The notes: generated by a model from the letters alone, not told the origin. Shown: positions 1 to 53,243, numbered from the stretch's first letter. The stretch: 64,000 nt of DNA from Cyanobacteriota bacterium (GCA_022402445.1 JAKRSF010000006.1:460540-524539), one strand, 5' to 3'. Made by a program: numbers and translations.

Positions 1-1248
1 GGGATCCACATAGAGCCCCTCCGCATTGGCATGGACCGTTTGGAACTCCTCATCGGAGTTGTAGCCATAGATCTGGAGCAGGGCCGGATTCGCGCTCAGG
101 TAGCGGCCATCGGCGGTGGTCTGAAAAATCCCCTCGATCGCATTCTCAAAAATGCTGCGATATTTCGCCTCCGCATTGCGCACCGCATCCTGGGAACTTT
201 CCAGCCGGTCCAGGGTGTTATTGAGAATCGACGCCAGTTCCGCCAGCTCATCGGTGCCGGGGAGTTCCTCCACCCGCATGGACGGATCCCCACTCGACCC
301 GATGGCGCTCACGCGATCGCTCAACTGCATCAACCGCGCCAGCACCAGCCGCTCCAGCAGCACCAGGGCCACCGTCCCCACCAGCAGGCCCACAATAAAC
401 AGCAGCGCAAACAGATAGCGGGTACTCACCTCCCCCTGGGCGTAGATCTCCCGAGGCAAATCCACCCGCACCAGCAAACTAGGGCGATTGTCAATATTGC
501 GCAAAATCGCATAGCCGCGAATTTGCCTGCGTCCCAGGGGCCGCGCCAGGGTAGCCTCATCATCCCCAAGGCTCAGCAGGGTTTGGACCGCCAACTGATC
601 CTGCGCATCCTTGAGGGTCGCTAGGGGCACCAAACTGATATTGAGCTGGGTCAAGCTGGCGATGCGGTTGAGTTCTGGCCCCTGCAAAAAACGGCCCACC
701 ACCAGGGTGCCGCGCACCGGCCCGTTGCCCTGGCTGGTGACGATGGGGCGCGAGGCGATGAGGACCGGCCCCTCGGGCAGGAGCATGATGCCCTTAATGA
801 TGGCGTCGGGGGAGGGGCTACGGGTCAGGTCCGGGCGATCGCGCAGGGCCTGACGGAAACTGTCGGCAATGGGGATGATCTCGCGCCGTTGCAGGTCATA
901 GCCCCGCTCAAACACGGGTTCCCCCTGGCCGTCGAACAGAATCAGCAGATTGAGCCGCAGGTAGTCAAAGGTGCGATCGACAAAGTTGGACTGCACGTAG
1001 GTACTGTTGCGGTCCGCCATGAAGCTATAGGTATCGTCCCATTCCGCATAGTCGCGGGCGGTGGCGTCAAGGTCCAAGGCCGTATCCGACAGCACATCCA
1101 CGGCCCGTTCCATATCCCGCTGCATTTCCTGGGCCTCTAGGGCGCGGAAATCATTCAGCAAAAAGCTTGAGGAGGTGGCGAACAGGACCAGGTTCAGGCA
1201 CAGAATGGCCAGACCGACGATGGTTAGGATTTTGACGCGTAATCTCAT
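1..1248 (-). CDS. CHASE4-HAMP-PAS membrane sensor, 3' part beyond left edge
   Basis: This reading frame starts at 1248 behind a strong Shine-Dalgarno (GGAGGTG, 5 bases before ATG) and stays open to the left edge, so its C-terminus is missing. Translated by hand, the 416 visible residues show a membrane segment at about 8-28, a periplasmic region of about 250 residues with the CHASE4 hallmark DYAEWDDTYSF at 67-77, a second membrane segment at 279-298, a HAMP linker at about 299-350, and a PAS domain starting near 361 (KYRSIFENAIEGIF). CHASE4 domains sense unknown extracellular or periplasmic ligands. The output domain (histidine kinase, GGDEF, EAL or other) lies outside the window, so the signalling class is undecided. 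Architecture is well supported; the exact role is not. Confidence 0.85.
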   Translation of the reverse strand, partial: MRLRVKILTIVGLAILCLNLVLFATSSSFLLNDFRALEAQEMQRDMERAVDVLSDTALDLDATARDYAEWDDTYSFMADRNSTYVQSNFVDRTFDYLRLNLLILFDGQGEPVFERGYDLQRREIIPIADSFRQALRDRPDLTRSPSPDAIIKGIMLLPEGPVLIASRPIVTSQGNGPVRGTLVVGRFLQGPELNRIASLTQLNISLVPLATLKDAQDQLAVQTLLSLGDDEATLARPLGRRQIRGYAILRNIDNRPSLLVRVDLPREIYAQGEVSTRYLFALLFIVGLLVGTVALVLLERLVLARLMQLSDRVSAIGSSGDPSMRVEELPGTDELAELASILNNTLDRLESSQDAVRNAEAKYRSIFENAIEGIFQTTADGRYLSANPALLQIYGYNSDEEFQTVHANAEGLYVDP

Positions 1249-1719
1249 GCACTCACCTCCCGATCGCGGGGCTCGGGGCGACCGGTTAGGCCAGCGGGGA
1301 AATAGGAACGAACTGCCATGGAGTCTTGATTCACAGGGCCAGGGGCGGGATCGGGATGGCATGACTCGGGCGCGCGATCGCGATCATGGCTCGGACACCA
1401 AAGCCACACCACCCCCCACGATGCGGTGCAACGGCTGCCGGGCTGCCTAACGATCAAGCCTAGTCTTTCAATCTATTCTGATGGATTTTGGTGACGCCCC
1501 TTAACCTTGGCGGGTCACCGGGGCTCCGGCCCTACCCATAATCAATGCCGATGATCCAGGGCGATCGCTGGGCGATCGCGATCGCGCGGACACCCTTCCC
1601 ATTGATGGTAGCGCAGTCCACCGGGGGGCTCCCACCCGGCGCAGCGCCCTGGCCCTTGGCCCCAAACGCAGGGCTCCCAGGGCTCCGAACGGCCCGCCAT
1701 GGAGGTCTAGAAAAAGAAC

Positions 1720-1928: not shown

Positions 1929-4900
1929 CTAGGGATCCTTCAGCGGCACCGTCAGGCGATCCATGCGGCTCACCGCAAACCCCTGGGCATAGTCAATCCC
2001 CATGGCCGACAGGGCCTCCAGCACCGTTTCGCGCTCCACAAATTCCGCAATGGTCTTCAACCCCATGGCGTGGGCAATGCGGTGGCAGCTCTCCACCATC
2101 GTGCGGTCCACCGGATTGATATCAATATCGCGCACAAAACTGCCATCAATCTTGAGATAGTCCACCGGCAAACTCTTGAGGTACATCAGCGAACTCATGC
2201 CGCTGCCAAAATCATCCAGGGCAAAGGAACAGCCCAGGGCGCGGATCTCCTCCATGAACCGGGCTGATCGCCCCAAATTCGCGATCGCCGTCGTCTCCGT
2301 CACCTCAAAACACAGGCGATGTTTCGGGAAATGGCTATTGGTGATCCGCTCCTTGAGGAACGCAAAAAAGCGATTGCTATTGAGACTACTGCCGGACAAA
2401 TTAATCGTATAAATCCGCTCCGGCAAATCCATCCCCCGACTCTCCACCGCCGCGAAAAAGGCATCAATCACCCAGCGATCGATCTCCGGCATCAGGTTAT
2501 AGCGCTCAGCGGCGGGCATAAACTTACCCGGCGACACCTCCTGGCCCACCTCATCGATCATGCGCAGCAGCACCTCGCTAATGGGCGGCGAGCCGGGACC
2601 GCCCAGGGGCGCAATGCTTTGGGTATAGAGACAAAAGCGATCCTCCGCCAGGGCGCTGTTGATACGGGCGATCCACTGCTGCTCCGTCTGCCAGCGCAGG
2701 ATTTGGCTATCGTCCGCCTGACAGGCTTTGAGGTGCCCTGGCCCCTCCCGGCGGGCCGCTTGGCAGGCGGCGTCGGCGGCCCCGAGGATCACCTCCAGGG
2801 TGGAGCTATTGCGCTCGATGGGCACCAGGCCAATGCTGGCGCTGAGGGTGTAGATGGCCCCATGCCAGTAGAACCGTTCCTCGGCCAGTTTTTTGCGGCA
2901 GGCTTCCAGGAGGGCGGCGGCTTTGGTGAAGTCGCGCTCCGGTAGCAAGATGCCGAATTCGTCGGTGTAGAGCCGTCCGATGGTGGCGGTGGTGGGAAAT
3001 TGCTGTTTCAGAAAACTGCCGAGCCGTTCCATCAGGCGGGTGCTGGCGTCGTGGCCGCAGGTGGTGTCAACGATCGCGAACCAGTCCAATGATAGGCAGG
3101 CGAGGGCTTGGGGGATGCCGGTCTGGCGGACGGTGGCGATCGCGCCGCGCAGTTGGGCATCAAACCCCTGGCGATTGAGCAGGCCCGTCAGCACATCGTG
3201 GGTGGCCTGCCACATCAGTTCCTGTTCGAGATAGTGGGCTTCGGTGACATCCCGCAGCACCAGCACCTGCCCCGCCACCCCGCCCGCGTGATCGCGCAGG
3301 GGCGCGCAGGATAGGTCGGTAATGCACTGGTGCCCCTGGCGCGACACCAACCGGTAGCGACCGCTGAGGCCCCCCTTCCGGGCGATCGCCCTCACATTCA
3401 GCGGTTCCGCCGTGGCCCCATCCGCATCAAACAGTTGCAGCAACTCCTCGATTCCCTTCCCCCGCGCCTCCTCCTGGCTCCAGCCGAGGGTCCGCTCCGC
3501 CACGGGGTTGAGCCCCTGGATCCGCCGCTGTTCATCTAGCACCATCACCGCATCCCCAATGGACTGGAGGGTCACCTGGGCCAGTTCCCGCTCGGCGGCC
3601 AGTTGCTCCTCCGCCTGCCGTCGGGCCGTGATGTCTTCCCCCAGGACGATGTTGCGCCCGTCCGAAAGGGTCACCGTGGTCCAGAGGGTATTGAGATAGT
3701 CGCCGCTGCGGCTGAGCACCCGCCGCCCGTGCCAGGTGCCCTGGGGCCAGTGTTCTGGGCGATCGCGCGGATTCTGAAAAATTTGCTCCCACCGTTGGGG
3801 GGCCGCGTCGCTGTGGTCGCCGTGGTCGCCGTGGGGGTTGGTGGGGGTGTTGGTCTGGAGGTGGCCGTTGGTATTGAGGGGGGCGGTGATGTCGGTGTCA
3901 GCGGGGGCGGGGGCATCGGTCGCTGGTCCGAGCAACTGCTCAAAGGTGCGATTCACGAATTCAATGCGCCCGTCCCCGTCGCACAGGGCCAGGACCAGGG
4001 GGATGCGGTCAAAGATCTTTTGCAGCGTTTCCAGGTGCTGTGCCGTTTCCGCCTGACTGGCCTTGAGGGCGGAGATGTCCGTGTCGGCCCCCAGGACCAC
4101 CGTGGCGCGCCCGTGGCGATCGCGCAGGGCCAAGGCTCGACAGTTGAACCAGCGGTACGAGCCATCCCGCTGCTGGCCGCGATATTCCACCTGGAAAAAG
4201 GGCGTCTCCCCCGCCAAATAGCGCTCAAATTCCGCCAGGACGCGATCGCGATCGGCCCCATGGATCAACTGCCCCCACCGCTCCCGACTCACCGCCCGCG
4301 CCGTCGGTTGAAAGCCCCGCAACTCGCGCCAGCGGGGCGACAGCATAAACTCCCCCGTCTTGGGCTTCCATTCCCAGAGGCCATCATTGGCACTGCGGGC
4401 CATCAACTCCCAGAGGGCTTCGCGGGCCTGAAGCTGCTGCGACACCCACAGCCGCTGCCACAGCTCCCGCGCCAACTGCACACTCTTGACCATGCTGCGC
4501 ACCCGCCCCGGCCCCGCCGCCCGCAGCACCCGCCCAAAGCGCAGAAAGATGGCGTAGCGATAGAACGGCAGGGCCAATAACATCACGAGGCTCAGTAAAT
4601 CTAACCAGTTCCAAAAATTTTTAAAATAGTTCAACGGCGATCGCGCCGTGCGACAAAAGGTTGAAATAATATCAAAAATCAGCAGCCCTGATACGGCAAA
4701 AAAGAGACAGTCTGAGGCGATCGTCACCACGCTAGAGGCCGGAAAGAGAATCCCCAGGGCCAAAAACAGCAGATCCACCACCAACAGAAGCGAAATTAAC
4801 CCCTGAAGGGGCCAAAGATTAACCTTTTGGATTAACCAGTCTGGCATTTTGAATTGAACCATTAGCTGACGCATGGGGGTTCTGAGAAACTGCTGAAGGG

Positions 4901-4958
4901 CGTGGTCCATATGGAGGAGGAGGAGTGCCGGGGAGAACTTTGGAAATATCATGGGCAA
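1929..4958 (-). CDS. Voltage-sensor-like membrane domain fused to three PAS, a degenerate GGDEF and an EAL domain
   Basis: Predicted c-di-GMP signalling protein of 1009 residues. The N-terminus has four membrane segments (about 51-72, 80-103, 112-130, 134-158). Segment 3 reads NYFKNFWNWLDLLSL and segment 4 carries basic residues at 134, 140, 143, 146, 152, 154 and 158, which resembles S3-S4 of voltage-sensor domains; no pore follows. PAS or PAS-like regions lie at about 180-300, 310-455 and 455-575. The GGDEF domain (about 582-745) has YTDEF in place of GGDEF, so cyclase activity is probably lost. The EAL domain (about 760-1005) has EVL instead of EAL but keeps NLSG, EVTET, DDFGSG and the KIDGSF lysine, so phosphodiesterase activity is plausible. 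ATG codons at residues 1, 3 and 17 leave the start slightly open. It lies downstream of, and is separated by 675 bases from, the nitroreductase gene. Confidence 0.85.
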   Translation of the reverse strand: MPMIFPKFSPALLLLHMDHALQQFLRTPMRQLMVQFKMPDWLIQKVNLWPLQGLISLLLVVDLLFLALGILFPASSVVTIASDCLFFAVSGLLIFDIISTFCRTARSPLNYFKNFWNWLDLLSLVMLLALPFYRYAIFLRFGRVLRAAGPGRVRSMVKSVQLARELWQRLWVSQQLQAREALWELMARSANDGLWEWKPKTGEFMLSPRWRELRGFQPTARAVSRERWGQLIHGADRDRVLAEFERYLAGETPFFQVEYRGQQRDGSYRWFNCRALALRDRHGRATVVLGADTDISALKASQAETAQHLETLQKIFDRIPLVLALCDGDGRIEFVNRTFEQLLGPATDAPAPADTDITAPLNTNGHLQTNTPTNPHGDHGDHSDAAPQRWEQIFQNPRDRPEHWPQGTWHGRRVLSRSGDYLNTLWTTVTLSDGRNIVLGEDITARRQAEEQLAAERELAQVTLQSIGDAVMVLDEQRRIQGLNPVAERTLGWSQEEARGKGIEELLQLFDADGATAEPLNVRAIARKGGLSGRYRLVSRQGHQCITDLSCAPLRDHAGGVAGQVLVLRDVTEAHYLEQELMWQATHDVLTGLLNRQGFDAQLRGAIATVRQTGIPQALACLSLDWFAIVDTTCGHDASTRLMERLGSFLKQQFPTTATIGRLYTDEFGILLPERDFTKAAALLEACRKKLAEERFYWHGAIYTLSASIGLVPIERNSSTLEVILGAADAACQAARREGPGHLKACQADDSQILRWQTEQQWIARINSALAEDRFCLYTQSIAPLGGPGSPPISEVLLRMIDEVGQEVSPGKFMPAAERYNLMPEIDRWVIDAFFAAVESRGMDLPERIYTINLSGSSLNSNRFFAFLKERITNSHFPKHRLCFEVTETTAIANLGRSARFMEEIRALGCSFALDDFGSGMSSLMYLKSLPVDYLKIDGSFVRDIDINPVDRTMVESCHRIAHAMGLKTIAEFVERETVLEALSAMGIDYAQGFAVSRMDRLTVPLKDP

Positions 4959-35820: not shown

Positions 35821-37488
35821 ATGAACATCAACGCCTCAATTATTGACCAGCGCCTCGTATCTGTCGTCAAGAACATCCGTCAACGGGCCTACGAAGAATT
35901 ACGAATCCAGGACAACAAGCTGAAATCTTTAGCGTTTGTCTACCTGTGCGTCAAAACAATTCTGGACTTAGATGACGACGATGCCTTTGATTGCTTAACT
36001 GAAGGTGGCGGTGACTTTGGCGTTGATGCCATGCACATTTCCGAAGAATATGATGGAGAGTTCACAGTTAGCCTATTTCAGACAAAATACAAAGATAGCC
36101 TAGAGGCAAGGTCCAATTTTCCTGAAGAAGGAATTGAAAGCCTAATCAATGCGATCCAATATCTATTTGATCCATCCGCCCAACTTAAATCTATTAACAA
36201 AAGACTACTAGTAAAGGTAGAAGAGGCTCGCAGTCTGATTCGAGACGGCTACATTCCACAGGTTCGAGCGCTGGCCTGTAATAACGGACTCAAGTGGAAT
36301 GAGTCGGCCCAGGAAGCAATTCAGCGTGCTCAATTTGGCGATCAAGTTACGTGGGAACACGTAAATCATGATCGCCTAGTTCATATCTTCCGATCTCCTA
36401 AGTTTATCAACGACACCTTGCAACTCAATGGCAAAGCAATTGTTGAGGACATGGAATTCAGCAGGGTTTTGGTTGGCAAAATTTCTGTCGCCGAAATTGC
36501 CACACTCATAGAGCGCCATGGGGAACGACTGTTGGAGCGAAACATTCGTCGCTATCTGGGTTTACAAGGCAATCGCATCAACAAGAGTATTCATGACACC
36601 TTGACCAGTGGCGAGAAAAATAATTTTTACTTTTACAACAATGGAATTACGTTGATTTGTAGCAACTTCTCCTATAACGCCTTGCAAAATGGTGACTATC
36701 AGGTTCGAGTTGAAGATTTGCAGATTATCAATGGAGGACAAACTTGTATCACTATCTATAAAACATTAAAGCAACCTGATTTGTTTCACCAAAATTCTCA
36801 GGCTTATGTTCTACTTCGTCTCTATCAATTGCCTCGCGAAAATGAAGACTTGGTGCAAAAGATAACCTATGCGACCAATAGTCAAAATCCAGTGGATCTC
36901 AAGGATTTGCGGGCAAATGATGAGCGACAGCAGCAGCTAGAAATAGATATTCAACAATTGGGATTTAGATATCGACGAAAACGCTCTGAGAAAAGCAAAG
37001 AACCTACGGACATTACATCGGGATTGGCTGCCGAAGCGATTTTGGCTGTGTGGCGCGAAAAGCCTCATCAGGCAAAGTTTTTTGTCCGTGAGCATTTTGG
37101 AAAGTTGTATCATTCAATTTTTACTGCACAGCTCAATGGGGCGCAGGTTATTATTGCCGTCCAGATTTACAAAATGGTGAAAAATCGCCTTGGACGACCG
37201 AAGTCTAATGAACCTGATTCTGTACGCTATGCCCCATGTTTTATTGCCATGCAAATGGGACGAAAGCTTTTGTCCGATCTAAACATTCAATTAGAGGAGC
37301 TGAATCATCGTAATTTTGAGGCTGCTCAGCGACTTCTTGAAAAAAATAGTAGGAATTACTTCAGTGACGCGATTCAGGATGTCCAAGAGGCGCTTCGGAA
37401 TCTTTACGGAGACCAGGAAATTTCGCTACAGCAGCTATCGGCGACATTCCGGCGTGGTGATTTGATTAGTCGGCTACCAAAAGACTAA
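35821..37488 (+). CDS. AIPR family protein (abortive infection phage resistance)
   Basis: 555 residues. The AIPR domain (about 225-380) shows ERNIRRYLGLQGNRINKSI, NNFYFYNNGITLICSNF and LQIINGGQTCITIY, which are its central motifs. The N-terminal part resembles a PD-(D/E)xK nuclease fold: GGGDFGVDAMHI (Asp at 65 and 69) and FQTKYK (Gln87, Lys89). Known AIPR proteins are implicated in abortive phage resistance. This gene is visibly AT-richer than its neighbours and contains no GCGATCGC; HIP1-free DNA runs from 35718 to 37527, so recent acquisition is likely. It starts only 15 bases after the hydrolase gene, with no clear ribosome site. Confidence 0.9.
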   Translation: MNINASIIDQRLVSVVKNIRQRAYEELRIQDNKLKSLAFVYLCVKTILDLDDDDAFDCLTEGGGDFGVDAMHISEEYDGEFTVSLFQTKYKDSLEARSNFPEEGIESLINAIQYLFDPSAQLKSINKRLLVKVEEARSLIRDGYIPQVRALACNNGLKWNESAQEAIQRAQFGDQVTWEHVNHDRLVHIFRSPKFINDTLQLNGKAIVEDMEFSRVLVGKISVAEIATLIERHGERLLERNIRRYLGLQGNRINKSIHDTLTSGEKNNFYFYNNGITLICSNFSYNALQNGDYQVRVEDLQIINGGQTCITIYKTLKQPDLFHQNSQAYVLLRLYQLPRENEDLVQKITYATNSQNPVDLKDLRANDERQQQLEIDIQQLGFRYRRKRSEKSKEPTDITSGLAAEAILAVWREKPHQAKFFVREHFGKLYHSIFTAQLNGAQVIIAVQIYKMVKNRLGRPKSNEPDSVRYAPCFIAMQMGRKLLSDLNIQLEELNHRNFEAAQRLLEKNSRNYFSDAIQDVQEALRNLYGDQEISLQQLSATFRRGDLISRLPKD

Positions 37489-37583: not shown

Positions 37584-39335
37584 ATGCTGTCGTCATCCCC
37601 CACCCGAACGGCTACCCCGTCCCGCGATGTGCAGACCATGCCCATTGGTCTGGGGACGACGGCGCTGCGATCGCGGACTTGGGAGCGGCTGAAGTTTGAG
37701 ATTGAATATTCCCTCCAGAAGGGCACGACGGCCAATAGCTACCTGGTGCGCGGGGCTGAAGCGATCGCCCTGATTGACCCGCCGGGGGAGACGTTCACGG
37801 AGCAATTCCTCAAGGCATTGGCGGTGCAGGTGGGCGATCGCGCGATCGATTACCTCATCCTCGGGCACCTCAACCCCAACCGTTACGCCACGTTGGTACA
37901 CCTGCTTGATCGCTACCCCAAGGCCACGGTGGTGTGCTCGAACCCCGCCGCGCGATCGCTCGAAACCCTCCTGGGCGATCGCGCCGCCAAGCCGACCATC
38001 CGCATTGTCAAAGGGGAAGACACCCTGGACCTGGGGGACGGGCACCGGTTGCAGTTTGTGCCGATCCCGACGCCCCGCTGGCCCGACGGTCTGGCGACAT
38101 TTGATCCGGCCAGCGGCATCCTATTCTCCGATAAGTTCTATGGAGCCCACGTCTGCGGCGATCAGGTGTTTGACGAGGGCTGGCAGATCTATGCGGGCGA
38201 TCGCCGGTTCTACTTCGACAGTCTCCACGCGGCCCAGGTGAACCAGGCGATCGCGGCCCTTGATAAGCTCGACGGCTTCGCGGCGACGGAAATTGCTCCG
38301 AACCACGGGCCGATCGTCCGCTATGGCCTGACGGAATTGAGGGGGCTGTACCGCACCTGGGCCCAGCAGCAGGCGAGCCAAACCCAGACGGTGGCGCTGC
38401 TCTATGCGTCGGCCTATGGCAATACGGCGGCGGTGGCCCAGGCGATCGCCAGTGGCATCACGAAGGCGGGGGTGGCGGTCAATTCTCTCAACTGTGAACA
38501 CGCCAGCGCGGAAGAGATCCAAACCGCGATCGCGGCCTGCGACGGTTTCATTATTGGTTCGCCCACCCTCGGCGGCCATGCGCCAACCCAGGTGCAAACG
38601 GCGCTGGGGCTGATTATTTCCACGGCGGCGAAAACCAAGCCCGCTGGGGTGTTTGGCTCCTTTGGCTGGAGCGGCGAGGCGATCGACCTGTTGGAAAGCA
38701 AGCTCAAGGATGCGGGCTACAGCTTTGGCATGGACACGATCCGCGTGAAATTTGCCCCCACCGCCGCGACGCTCAAAACCTGTGAGGAGGCGGGCACGGA
38801 TTTTGCCCAAAAGATCAAGCGCAGCAGCAAACGCCGCGCCGCCCAGCCCGCCGCCGTGACGGGTACTGCCGATCGCACGGCCCAGGCGGTGGGTCGGGTC
38901 GTGGGGGCGTTATGTGTGGTGACGGCCCAGCGGGAGGATGTGGAAACGGCGATGCTGGCGTCTTGGGTCTCGCAGGCGACGTTTAATCCCCCCGGTTTGA
39001 CGGTGGCGGTGGCGAAGGAGCGGGCGATTGAACTGTTGCTCAATGAGGGGGATCAATTTGTCCTCAATATCCTGCCGGAGGGGAGTGATTTGTGGAAGCA
39101 ATTTGTCAAGAATTACGCTCCCGGTCAGGATCGATTCGAGGGCGTTGAAACCCAGCAGGCGGCCAATGGGGCGCGTATCCTGACGGGGGCGATCGCGTAT
39201 CTAGAATGCACGGTGAAGCAGCGGATGGAGTGCGGTGACCATTGGTTGACCTATGCCGTCGCCAGTCAAGGGTCGGTGCTCGATGGCGATCGCGTGACGG
39301 CCCTGCACCACCGCAAGTCCGGCAGCCATTATTAA
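37584..39335 (+). CDS. flv1: Diflavin flavoprotein, Flv1/Flv2 type
   Basis: 583 residues with lactamase-like, flavodoxin (about 264-405) and flavin-reductase (about 435-575) domains, as in cyanobacterial A-type flavodiiron proteins. The flavodoxin nucleotide loop YASAYGNTAAVAQAI and the reductase part GALCVVTAQREDVETAMLASWVSQATFNPP are clear. The diiron ligand stretch reads HLNPNR at 95-100 instead of the canonical HxExDH, and later positions also change (PTPRWPDG, SDKFYG). Such substituted ligands are known for Flv1 and Flv2 partners of Flv3 and Flv4 in oxygen photoreduction. No partner gene is in the window, so the Flv1 name is provisional. Confidence 0.9.
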   Translation: MLSSSPTRTATPSRDVQTMPIGLGTTALRSRTWERLKFEIEYSLQKGTTANSYLVRGAEAIALIDPPGETFTEQFLKALAVQVGDRAIDYLILGHLNPNRYATLVHLLDRYPKATVVCSNPAARSLETLLGDRAAKPTIRIVKGEDTLDLGDGHRLQFVPIPTPRWPDGLATFDPASGILFSDKFYGAHVCGDQVFDEGWQIYAGDRRFYFDSLHAAQVNQAIAALDKLDGFAATEIAPNHGPIVRYGLTELRGLYRTWAQQQASQTQTVALLYASAYGNTAAVAQAIASGITKAGVAVNSLNCEHASAEEIQTAIAACDGFIIGSPTLGGHAPTQVQTALGLIISTAAKTKPAGVFGSFGWSGEAIDLLESKLKDAGYSFGMDTIRVKFAPTAATLKTCEEAGTDFAQKIKRSSKRRAAQPAAVTGTADRTAQAVGRVVGALCVVTAQREDVETAMLASWVSQATFNPPGLTVAVAKERAIELLLNEGDQFVLNILPEGSDLWKQFVKNYAPGQDRFEGVETQQAANGARILTGAIAYLECTVKQRMECGDHWLTYAVASQGSVLDGDRVTALHHRKSGSHY

Positions 39336-50494: not shown

Positions 50495-51949
50495 TTAGGG
50501 TCGGCCCTCTAGCAGTTCCTGGGCCATGCGGCGGGTGTTTTTCGCCTCTTCGTAGTCGGGATCGATGGCGAGGGCTTGGTCGAGGTGTGCCATGGCGTCC
50601 TCCAGATCACCGGGCTGGTTCCGCTGGATGAGGACGGCGGCGAGGCCCTGGCGGGCAAGGGCGGCGATCCAGTCGCTCTGGGAAATGCCGATCGCGCGGT
50701 GGTAGCTGGCGATCGCCCCCTCAAAATCTCCCATGAAGGCGAGGGCATCCCCCAGATTGTTGTGGGCGTCGTCGTTGTCGGGGTTGAGTTCTAGGGCGTA
50801 GCGGTAGCTGGCGATCGCCCCGGCCACATCCATCTGACCGTAGAGGGCCATGCCTAGGCCGTTGTGGGTCGCACTGTTCCCCGGATTGATTTCTAGGGCG
50901 CGGCGGTAACTGGCGATCGCCGCCTCCCCCTGCCCCCGCATATCCAACGCTGCCCCCAGACCTGCATGGGCATAGTCCAGATTGGGATTGAGTTCGATGG
51001 CGCGGCGGTAGCTGGCGATCGCCCCGTCCCAATCCTTCGCGTCCGCCAGAACCGTGCCCAGGTGGCTGTGCATTTCGGCGTCACTGGGATCTAGTTCCAG
51101 GAACCGGCGGTAGTTCGCGATCGCCCCCTCCAAATCCCCCTGCTGGTAGAGCACCCCCCCCAGGCCCGCGTAGGACTTGGCAAAGGTTGGGTCAACGGCA
51201 ATGGCGAGGCGGTATTGCTCAATGGCCTCCTCCAAGTTCCTCTGGAGCCGGAGCGCCAACGCTAGCATGTTGTGGGTATCGGCGTCGCCGGGATTGAGGG
51301 ACACCGCGCGGCGGTAGGCCGCGATCGCCCCGTCCGTATCATCCCCGAGCAGCAGCGCTATACCTAATTGACGGTGGGCTTCGACATCATCGGGATAAGC
51401 GGCAATGGCTTGGCGGTAACTGGCGATCGCCCCCGCCAGATCCCCCTGTTCCATCAGAACGTTCCCTAGGTTGATGTGGGCCGCGCCGTAGTTGGGATTG
51501 ATCGCCACGGCACGGCGGTAGGCCGCGATCGCCCCCTCCAGATCCCCCTGGGTTCCGAGGGCAATGCCCAGGTTGTAGTAGGCGCTGGCGTAGTCGAAAT
51601 CCAGATCCGTGGCGCGGCGGTAGCTGGCGATCGCCCCATCGAGATCCCCCAACGCCTCCAGGGCCATGCCCAAATTATTGTGGGTGACGGAATCATTGGG
51701 GCTCTGGCTCAGGACTTCCCGAAACAGCCGCGCCGCCTCCCGATAGTCCCCCCGGTGATAGGCTTCTGCCCCCTGATTGCGCAGTTGCTCTAGCTGGTCA
51801 AACAGTTGCCCTAGGGCATCGCTACTTTGACCTAGGGGGGCGATGATCTGGCCTTCGGCGGCCTGCCGTGGTCCACTGGCGGCTTCGGCCCCCGACATCA
51901 TCACCAATACCCCCGCCACGCCCCCCAGCCAAGCTACAACTCTCGCCAT
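50495..51949 (-). CDS. Secreted TPR-repeat protein, copy A
   Basis: 484 residues with a signal peptide (MARVVAWLGGVAGVLVMMSGAEA) and about 11 tetratricopeptide repeats of 34 residues of the form GAIASYRRALELNPN. Each unit's GAIA is encoded by a HIP1 octamer, so HIP1 recurs in a 102-base register. The protein is probably periplasmic and mediates protein-protein contacts; its partner is unknown. The 363-base 5' block (51627-51989) is identical to the downstream paralogue's start, showing recent duplication or gene conversion. Confidence 0.88.
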   Translation of the reverse strand: MARVVAWLGGVAGVLVMMSGAEAASGPRQAAEGQIIAPLGQSSDALGQLFDQLEQLRNQGAEAYHRGDYREAARLFREVLSQSPNDSVTHNNLGMALEALGDLDGAIASYRRATDLDFDYASAYYNLGIALGTQGDLEGAIAAYRRAVAINPNYGAAHINLGNVLMEQGDLAGAIASYRQAIAAYPDDVEAHRQLGIALLLGDDTDGAIAAYRRAVSLNPGDADTHNMLALALRLQRNLEEAIEQYRLAIAVDPTFAKSYAGLGGVLYQQGDLEGAIANYRRFLELDPSDAEMHSHLGTVLADAKDWDGAIASYRRAIELNPNLDYAHAGLGAALDMRGQGEAAIASYRRALEINPGNSATHNGLGMALYGQMDVAGAIASYRYALELNPDNDDAHNNLGDALAFMGDFEGAIASYHRAIGISQSDWIAALARQGLAAVLIQRNQPGDLEDAMAHLDQALAIDPDYEEAKNTRRMAQELLEGRP

Positions 51950-52040: not shown

Positions 52041-53243
52041 TTAGCGATCGCCGCGAGATCTGAGGCGCTCCTGGAGTTCTCGGTAATTGTCCTGGGCCTC
52101 CCTATAGTCCGGATTCAGGGCCAGGGCTATCTCTAAATGCGCGATCGCCCCCTCCAAATCCTCCGCCTGCACCAGCAGCACCCCCAGGTGATTGTGCATC
52201 TCCGCGTCATCCGGCCTCAGCTCTAGAAAACGGCGGTAGTTCGCGATCGCCCCGTCCAAATCCCCCTGCTGATAAAGCGTTGCCCCCAGGCCAGCGTAGG
52301 AATAGGAAAAGGTTGGGTTAACGGCAATGGCGAGGCGGTATTGCTCAATGGCCTCCTCCAAGTTCCCCTGGAGCTGGAGCGCTAACGCCAGCATACTGTG
52401 GGTATCGGCGTTGCCGGGATTGAGGGACACCGCGCGGCGGTAGTGCGTGATCGCCCTTTCCGTATCCGTGCGCAGCAGTAGCGACCCCAGTAGGCGATGG
52501 GCTTCGAGGTCGTCCGGATAGGCTTCAATGGCGCGGTTATAGCTCGCGATCGCCCCCGCCTCGTCCCCCTGGATTGCCAGGAGGCCGCCCAGATTGCGGT
52601 GGGCCGCGCCGTAGTTAGGATTGATCTCCACGGCACGGCGGTAGGCCGCCATCTCCCCCTCCCTATCCCACTTGAGAGCAAGGGCACGGCCCAGGTCGTA
52701 GTAAGCGGCAGCGTAGTCGAAATCAAAGTCCGTGTCCCCTTGAATCGTCAGGAGAGTGTCTAGGGTTAGGTGAGCCGCATCGTAGTTGGGTTCGAGCGCC
52801 ACGGCACGGTGGTACGCCGCGATCGCGCCGTCGAAATCCCCCTTTTTCCCGAGGGCAATGCCCAGGTTGTAGTGGGGGGCAGCATAGGCGGCATCAATGT
52901 CGGCAGCTTGGCGGTAGGCCGCGATCGCCCCATCGAGATCCCCCAACGCCTCCAGGGCCATGCCCAAATTATTGTGGGTGACGGAATCATTGGGGCTCTG
53001 GCTCAGGACTTCCCGAAACAGCCGCGCCGCCTCCCGATAGTCCCCCCGGTGATAGGCTTCTGCCCCCTGATTGCGCAGTTGCTCTAGCTGGTCAAACAGT
53101 TGCCCTAGGGCATCGCTACTTTGACCTAGGGGGGCGATGATCTGGCCTTCGGCGGCCTGCCGTGGTCCACTGGCGGCTTCGGCCCCCGACATCATCACCA
53201 ATACCCCCGCCACGCCCCCCAGCCAAGCTACAACTCTCGCCAT
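52041..53243 (-). CDS. Secreted TPR-repeat protein, copy B
   Basis: 400 residues. The first 107 are identical to copy A, including the signal peptide, then the repeats diverge: one unit is a residue shorter (LLRTDTERAITHY) and a block TIQGDTDFDFDYAAAYYDLGRALALKWDREGEMAAY is unique. About nine TPR units are present. It lies 91 bases upstream of copy A on the same strand, so both could be on one transcript or each carry its own duplicated promoter. Likely periplasmic adaptor; partner unknown. Confidence 0.88.
   Translation of the reverse strand: MARVVAWLGGVAGVLVMMSGAEAASGPRQAAEGQIIAPLGQSSDALGQLFDQLEQLRNQGAEAYHRGDYREAARLFREVLSQSPNDSVTHNNLGMALEALGDLDGAIAAYRQAADIDAAYAAPHYNLGIALGKKGDFDGAIAAYHRAVALEPNYDAAHLTLDTLLTIQGDTDFDFDYAAAYYDLGRALALKWDREGEMAAYRRAVEINPNYGAAHRNLGGLLAIQGDEAGAIASYNRAIEAYPDDLEAHRLLGSLLLRTDTERAITHYRRAVSLNPGNADTHSMLALALQLQGNLEEAIEQYRLAIAVNPTFSYSYAGLGATLYQQGDLDGAIANYRRFLELRPDDAEMHNHLGVLLVQAEDLEGAIAHLEIALALNPDYREAQDNYRELQERLRSRGDR

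Follow-up and report, generated by a model that had tools for sequence, protein, structure and literature searches.

A voltage-sensor-like domain without a pore precedes PAS, GGDEF, and EAL domains in a cyanobacterial protein

RESULTS

One open frame encodes a four-segment membrane domain, three PAS domains, GGDEF, and EAL.

The gene analyzed here lies on the minus strand of the window, by which we mean the whole 64,000-nucleotide stretch of DNA from a Cyanobacteriota bacterium that was examined. An earlier note, made from the same sequence, had placed an open reading frame at positions 1929 to 4958, and this frame proved to be open throughout (Table 1). Its start codon is uncertain, as ATG codons at 4952, 4910, and 4874 compete with the TTG at 4958, and the relatives described below start near 4910/4874. 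Since all 1,009 codons are open and the domain order is kept in relatives, a truncated channel pseudogene was ruled out. Downstream on the same strand, a gene at window positions 1 to 1362 (minus), which runs on to L055:2520, encodes a 1,460-aa CHASE4-HAMP-PAS-GAF histidine kinase, and a tRNA-Arg (CCG) gene (1719 to 1792, minus) sits between the two.

Pfam located PAS domains at three places, followed by a GGDEF domain whose GG(D/E)EF signature reads YTDEF, in agreement with the three PAS domains and degenerate GGDEF originally proposed. Inside PAS 2 lies a low-complexity stretch of ~50 residues rich in T, N, P, H, and D (residues 347 to 396; 3770 to 3920, minus). In the relatives this stretch is shorter, and they have no equivalent of the 13-residue insert that directly precedes S1 in the window protein.

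Table 1. Positions of the gene and of its predicted domains and segments in the window
Feature	Residues	Coordinates	Strand	Remarks
Whole gene, VSD-PAS-PAS-PAS-GGDEF(degenerate)-EAL		1929..4958	minus	Single open frame, 1009 aa from TTG 4958
Voltage-sensor-like domain (VSD), S1-S4	51-150	4509..4808	minus	Ion_trans 54-148; PDB profile search; HHalign with controls
S1	54-73	4740..4799	minus	D62, aligned to S1 aspartate of Ci-VSP
S2	80-102	4653..4721	minus	Acid D96; aliphatic L93 at -3 from D96
S3	114-131	4566..4619	minus	Motif W-N-x-L-D (N117, D120) and P131
S4	133-150	4509..4562	minus	R134, R140, R143, R146; I137
S4-to-PAS linker	151-185	4404..4508	minus	Predicted helical; without S5/S6
PAS 1 (PAS_3)	206-290	4089..4343	minus	Pfam; missing from the G008 relative
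PAS 2 core (PAS_8)	311-348	3915..4028	minus	Pfam; low-complexity insert follows
PAS 3 (PAS_4)	465-575	3234..3566	minus	Pfam
GGDEF domain	585-739	2742..3206	minus	Pfam; signature YTDEF at 664-668
EAL domain	765-998	1965..2666	minus	Pfam, 196.9 bits

The N-terminus is related to the voltage-sensor domains of ion channels.

The Ion_trans (PF00520) match in the N-terminus spans profile positions 7 to 109 of 241, which correspond to S1-S4 only. No S5-P-S6 pore domain was found after S4 with this profile: the match stops at position 109, and PAS follows. The score was 27.2 bits for the N-terminus alone and 23.0 bits for the whole protein (cutoff, 25). Since a single sequence was thus borderline, we did not rest the case for a VSD on it and instead used the five members of the family described below, four of whose VSDs are recognized by Pfam as Ion_trans. 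In a PDB search, a profile built from these five VSDs matched channels of the Nav, Cav, and NavAb types with E values of 1.7e-14 to 8e-9. The PaFPC1 sodium channel ranked first (1.7e-14 as a sum over its repeats), bacterial chains with a single repeat, annotated "Ion transport protein," reached 8e-9, and the best 60 matches were all voltage-gated channels. In whole genomes, the same profile found Nav-like channels, including that of the window genome (7e-10) and that of G001 (3e-14). When the five VSDs were compared with 14 channel-type VSDs in HHalign, 97 columns running through S1-S4 were aligned (score, 86.7; probability, 98.6; P = 1.3e-15), compared to a score of 21.3 for the reversed family and a mean of 14.1 (maximum, 26.8) for 200 local block-shuffles. 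At the level of sequence, these comparisons settle that the N-terminus is homologous to channel VSDs. Lacking S5-P-S6, the protein by its sequence carries a voltage-sensor domain without a pore and is not a voltage-gated ion channel. The original description of the N-terminus as a voltage-sensor-like S1-S4 unit with no pore was thus borne out by homology in Pfam, the PDB profile search, and HHalign.

The same note had asked whether a profile search would return a plain MASE or 7TM sensor in place of a VSD. Neither MASE nor any other known membrane-sensor family was matched in Pfam at E values up to 1, and a sensor of this type was ruled out. Single-sequence AlphaFold2 models of residues 17 to 202 and 44 to 172 were of low confidence (pLDDT of 61 and 70, respectively); four helices were predicted in the N-terminus, likewise at low confidence. 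The top Foldseek hits of these models were KCNQ4 and then a VSOP/Hv1 chimera; no match was significant, and they were not counted as support.

The window genome also encodes a full Nav-like channel (L001, G000:C8) and a second, Kv-like channel (L002, G000:C11), so that canonical VSDs coexist with the pore-less one.

S4 arginines and the S2 acid are conserved in a charge-poor sensor.

Of 80 membrane positions compared across the five diverged members, just five are invariant, namely, N117, P131, R134, R140, and R143. The chance that three named positions, here the three S4 arginines, would all be invariant when 5 of 80 are is 1.2e-4, which disfavors a mere membrane anchor. R146 is an arginine in three members and a serine in the other two, and the VSD from G008 carries an extra arginine at 149. 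The S2 acid D96 is D or E in all five members; the S1 aspartate D62 is present in four, as is D120 of S3. The FWNWLD motif that had been noticed in segment 3 is indeed there, at residues 115 to 120, and includes both N117 and D120. At -3 from the S2 acid, all five members have L or I where the cyanobacterial channels have F, and the aromatic residue of the charge-transfer center is therefore absent. This aromatic is not known to be a strict requirement of a VSD.

Alignment with the cyanobacterial channels places R140, R143, and R146 opposite S4 arginines two to four. Where the Nav-like channels have their first gating arginine, the window protein has I137, and R134 stands at an extra outer position. 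The S4 charge pattern therefore consists of a regular series of three, the first two of which are found in every member, plus one offset arginine, below the four to six continuous charges of most channel S4s (PMC10651576). The earlier note had read basic residues at 134, 140, 143, 146, 152, 154, and 158 as an S4 series spaced about every three positions. The residues are where it put them, but the spacing applies only to 140, 143, and 146, since 134 precedes 140 by six and 152, 154, and 158 lie past the membrane segment. In the linker between S4 and PAS, K158 and L162 are invariant in the family. The positively charged N-terminus and S2-S3 loop (RTARSPLNYFKN) fit, together with hydropathy, a topology in which both the N terminus and the C terminus would be cytoplasmic.

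The EAL domain retains its catalytic residues, and the GGDEF signature is lost in the window protein.

The EAL domain, which had been called mostly intact, needs no such qualifier: it is fully intact at every catalytic position checked (E795 in EVLLR, N853, E885, D915, D916, K936, E972, and Q992), and the four GGDEF-EAL members of the family are identical at all of them. Given that L051, L052, and L053, the other three of these members, have an intact GGDEF, loss of the signature is particular to the window protein. When the last 427 residues were compared with the PDB, the closest relative was RbdA of Pseudomonas aeruginosa (5xgb; 2.9e-107 over 415 residues), the match covering the whole GGDEF-EAL pair; FimX was also among the solved relatives. 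RbdA behaves as a phosphodiesterase whose activity GTP stimulates through the GGDEF domain (PMC10874727). The EAL domain of the window protein is a putative c-di-GMP phosphodiesterase.

A small family carries the VSD on two kinds of output.

When genome contigs were scanned with the full protein, all matches were to its PAS-GGDEF-EAL half. For the N-terminus, relatives turned up in four further genomes, two from the same family (G003 and G001) and two from another order of the class (G008 and G032), with N-termini 24 to 35% identical to that of the window protein. Three of them (L051 in G003, L052 in G001, and L053 in G008) have the arrangement VSD-PAS-GGDEF-EAL. The fourth (L054 in G032; 1955 to 3928, minus) is a VSD-PAS-PAS-class III nucleotide cyclase fusion (Guanylate_cyc, 219 bits). 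The VSD of L054 goes unrecognized by Pfam alone and has neither the S1 nor the S3 aspartate, but it keeps R134, R140, R143, and R146, and we assigned it to the family because it is similar to the window domain (6.8e-6). G032 is a draft genome with an estimated contamination of 8%, which leaves its taxonomic origin less secure than the sequence itself. Contamination as the origin of the fusion itself was ruled out by its occurrence in five genomes from two orders.

Strong VSD matches were confined to these five genomes, namely, three of six from the home order and two of two from the other order, in a survey of two overlapping sets, 390 genomes from the class and 386 from the phylum. None was found in 65 genomes of one more order, and scans of viral contigs and plasmids likewise returned none. 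When all Ion_trans matches in 72 genomes were inspected, the G008 fusion was the sole match confined to S1-S4 within a long frame; the others were full channels, pore-side matches, or fragments of ~110 aa. In a tree with channel VSDs, the five group on one side of a branch (support, 90/91), which is moderate evidence for a single origin, given the long branches of the tree. Gene neighborhoods differ between the lineages and offer no functional clue.

The fusion combines features of Ci-VSP, bacterial channels, and RbdA.

The best PDB match of the N-terminus as a single sequence was the voltage sensor of the ascidian protein Ci-VSP (4g80), at an E value that is not significant (0.25). In the printed alignment, D62, D96, and D120 lie opposite aspartates of Ci-VSP. 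Arginines stand at 0, 6, 9, and 12 (R-x5-R-x2-R-x2-R) in the Ci-VSP S4 string GRLVVLARLLRVVR and with the same spacing in the window string YRYAIFLRFGRVLR. This match is a reading by eye, since HMMER left the two strings unaligned (Ci-VSP has a longer S3-S4 loop). Both proteins place a pore-less S1-S4 before a cytoplasmic enzyme. In Ci-VSP this enzyme is a PTEN-like lipid phosphatase and S2 carries a phenylalanine, whereas the bacterial protein carries PAS-GGDEF-EAL and an aliphatic residue at that position; the PTEN-like phosphatase domain that marks VSP/TPTE proteins is absent from it in Pfam.

Bacterial Nav-like channels, cyanobacterial ones included (NavAb/NavMs type; L001, L040, and L042), share the homologous VSD and the S3 motif W-N-x-x-D with the window protein. 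In contrast to the latter, they run on into S5-pore-S6 and end at ~300 to 400 aa, and the offset R134 of the fusion replaces their first arginine. RbdA (PA0861) has the same EAL residues but differs in its intact GGDEF and in its membrane part, which in the window protein is a VSD. The adenylyl cyclases of Paramecium, Plasmodium, and Tetrahymena combine a VSD with a K+ channel (Weber 2004, as cited in PMC10651576). As that citation presents them, these alveolate enzymes resemble the bacterial family in joining a voltage sensor to a second-messenger enzyme, and the K+ pore belongs to the alveolate proteins only; L054 is thus their pore-less parallel.

DISCUSSION

We propose that the window protein works as a bacterial counterpart of Ci-VSP, with movement of S4 setting the rate of c-di-GMP hydrolysis, and we give this reading, voltage dependence included, a probability of about one-half. 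The suggestion in the earlier note that membrane voltage or a bound ion could steer c-di-GMP breakdown is in this respect a reasonable one. VSD homology, the absence of a pore, the conserved charges, and the intact EAL residues are read directly from the sequence; from there, we infer topology, phosphodiesterase activity, S4 movement, and coupling. Given the inside-positive N-terminus and S2-S3 loop, the catalytic half would be cytoplasmic. Shifts in membrane potential would move S4 such that R134, R140, R143, and R146 pass the acids D62, D96, and D120. The linker between S4 and PAS, predicted to be helical, would carry this movement to the PAS-GGDEF-EAL stack, in which the EAL domain would hydrolyze c-di-GMP. 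The degenerate GGDEF would no longer make c-di-GMP and would at most be regulatory. The VSD module itself appears to be portable, as the same domain precedes a class III nucleotide cyclase in L054. We suggest, slightly more tentatively, that the family represents bacterial voltage-gated enzymes, in which a working pore-less sensor would sit interchangeably on a c-di-GMP phosphodiesterase or a class III cyclase and act without an ion current.

With S4 charge poor and the S2 aromatic missing, the chance is appreciable that the domain responds to some other signal or serves purely as an anchor. On this reading, its ancestor was a channel VSD but voltage sensing has been lost, and it would be an anchor or a receptor for another cue, such as a lipid, a proton, or a redox partner, with the PAS domains setting activity. 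We take this to be a minority possibility but a serious one. Isoleucine in place of the first gating arginine, the R146S change in two relatives, and the lost S2 aromatic all speak against a voltage sensor, as do the missing S1 and S3 aspartates of the cyclase relative; the main input could come from the three PAS domains, and PAS-GGDEF-EAL modules of the same type function elsewhere behind other N-termini. Yet R134, R140, R143, and the S2 acid have been kept in all five members despite the low identity of their N-termini, and an anchor does not need buried arginines. That membrane-buried arginines are conserved across changing outputs makes the anchor less likely, and retention of the domain while the output switches from GGDEF-EAL to a class III cyclase counts in favor of voltage sensing.

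It is improbable, by our estimate, that the VSD conducts protons or cations in the manner of Hv1 or of a gating pore and that the PAS domains respond to local ion entry instead of to S4 mechanics. The domain is pore-less and has an S1 aspartate at the position of that in Ci-VSP, and gating-pore currents are usual in VSDs that lack an S4 arginine (PMC10651576). However, it is fused to an enzyme and is no stand-alone channel, and the tryptophan described as totally conserved in Hv1 S4 (PMC10377628) is absent from residues 133 to 150 of the window protein (YRYAIFLRFGRVLRAAG).

We think it similarly unlikely that the output is something other than hydrolysis, with the GGDEF-EAL pair being, like FimX or LapD, a pseudo-enzyme or a receptor for c-di-GMP. 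The degenerate YTDEF and the presence of FimX among the solved relatives would suit such a role, but the closest solved relative is the phosphodiesterase RbdA, and the catalytic EAL positions checked are not only present but also invariant in the four GGDEF-EAL members. An ordinary MASE-type or unrelated sensor with arginines placed by chance is scarcely credible: the whole-protein score of 23.0 bits falls short of 25 and neither low-confidence model gave a significant VSD match, but profile evidence at 1e-14 to 1e-15, with controls, and the lack of any match to such a family in Pfam refute it at the profile level.

Eukaryotes are known to have fusions of a VSD to an enzyme, such as Ci-VSP and the alveolate cyclases with a VSD plus a pore, and the sNHE exchanger is a further case (PMC10651576). 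A 2023 review concluded from database searches that every known prokaryotic VSD is accompanied by a pore domain (PMC10377628), a statement that the pore-less family contradicts as far as sequence can. No description of a VSD with a GGDEF, EAL, or diguanylate cyclase domain was found in the open-access literature, to which our search was confined, and the remark in the earlier note that it knew of no described protein with this arrangement stands within that scope. Bacterial communities are known to undergo changes in membrane potential, but a protein that converts voltage into a c-di-GMP signal would, as far as open-access papers show, be undescribed. The family would stand as a bacterial parallel to Ci-VSP and to the alveolate fusions with cyclases. 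It is a compact candidate for controlling second messengers electrically and for engineering c-di-GMP or cyclic nucleotide output under voltage control. If the proposal is true, some bacteria may turn membrane voltage directly into second-messenger signals.

Other genes in the window.

Elsewhere in the window, a gene for an AIPR-domain protein of the abortive-infection phage-resistance family (35821 to 37488, plus) adjoins one for a flavodiiron protein with a flavin-reductase tail (37584 to 39335), and a ferredoxin-type nitrite/sulfite reductase is also encoded. The flavodiiron protein and this reductase, along with compact genomes of 1.6 to 1.8 Mb in the surveyed set, suggest that the class is probably Cyanobacteriia. 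Two adjacent TPR-repeat genes (50495 to 51949 and 52041 to 53243, minus) have identical first 50 residues and share 300-base stretches that are 83 to 85% identical; they are probably the product of a recent tandem duplication.
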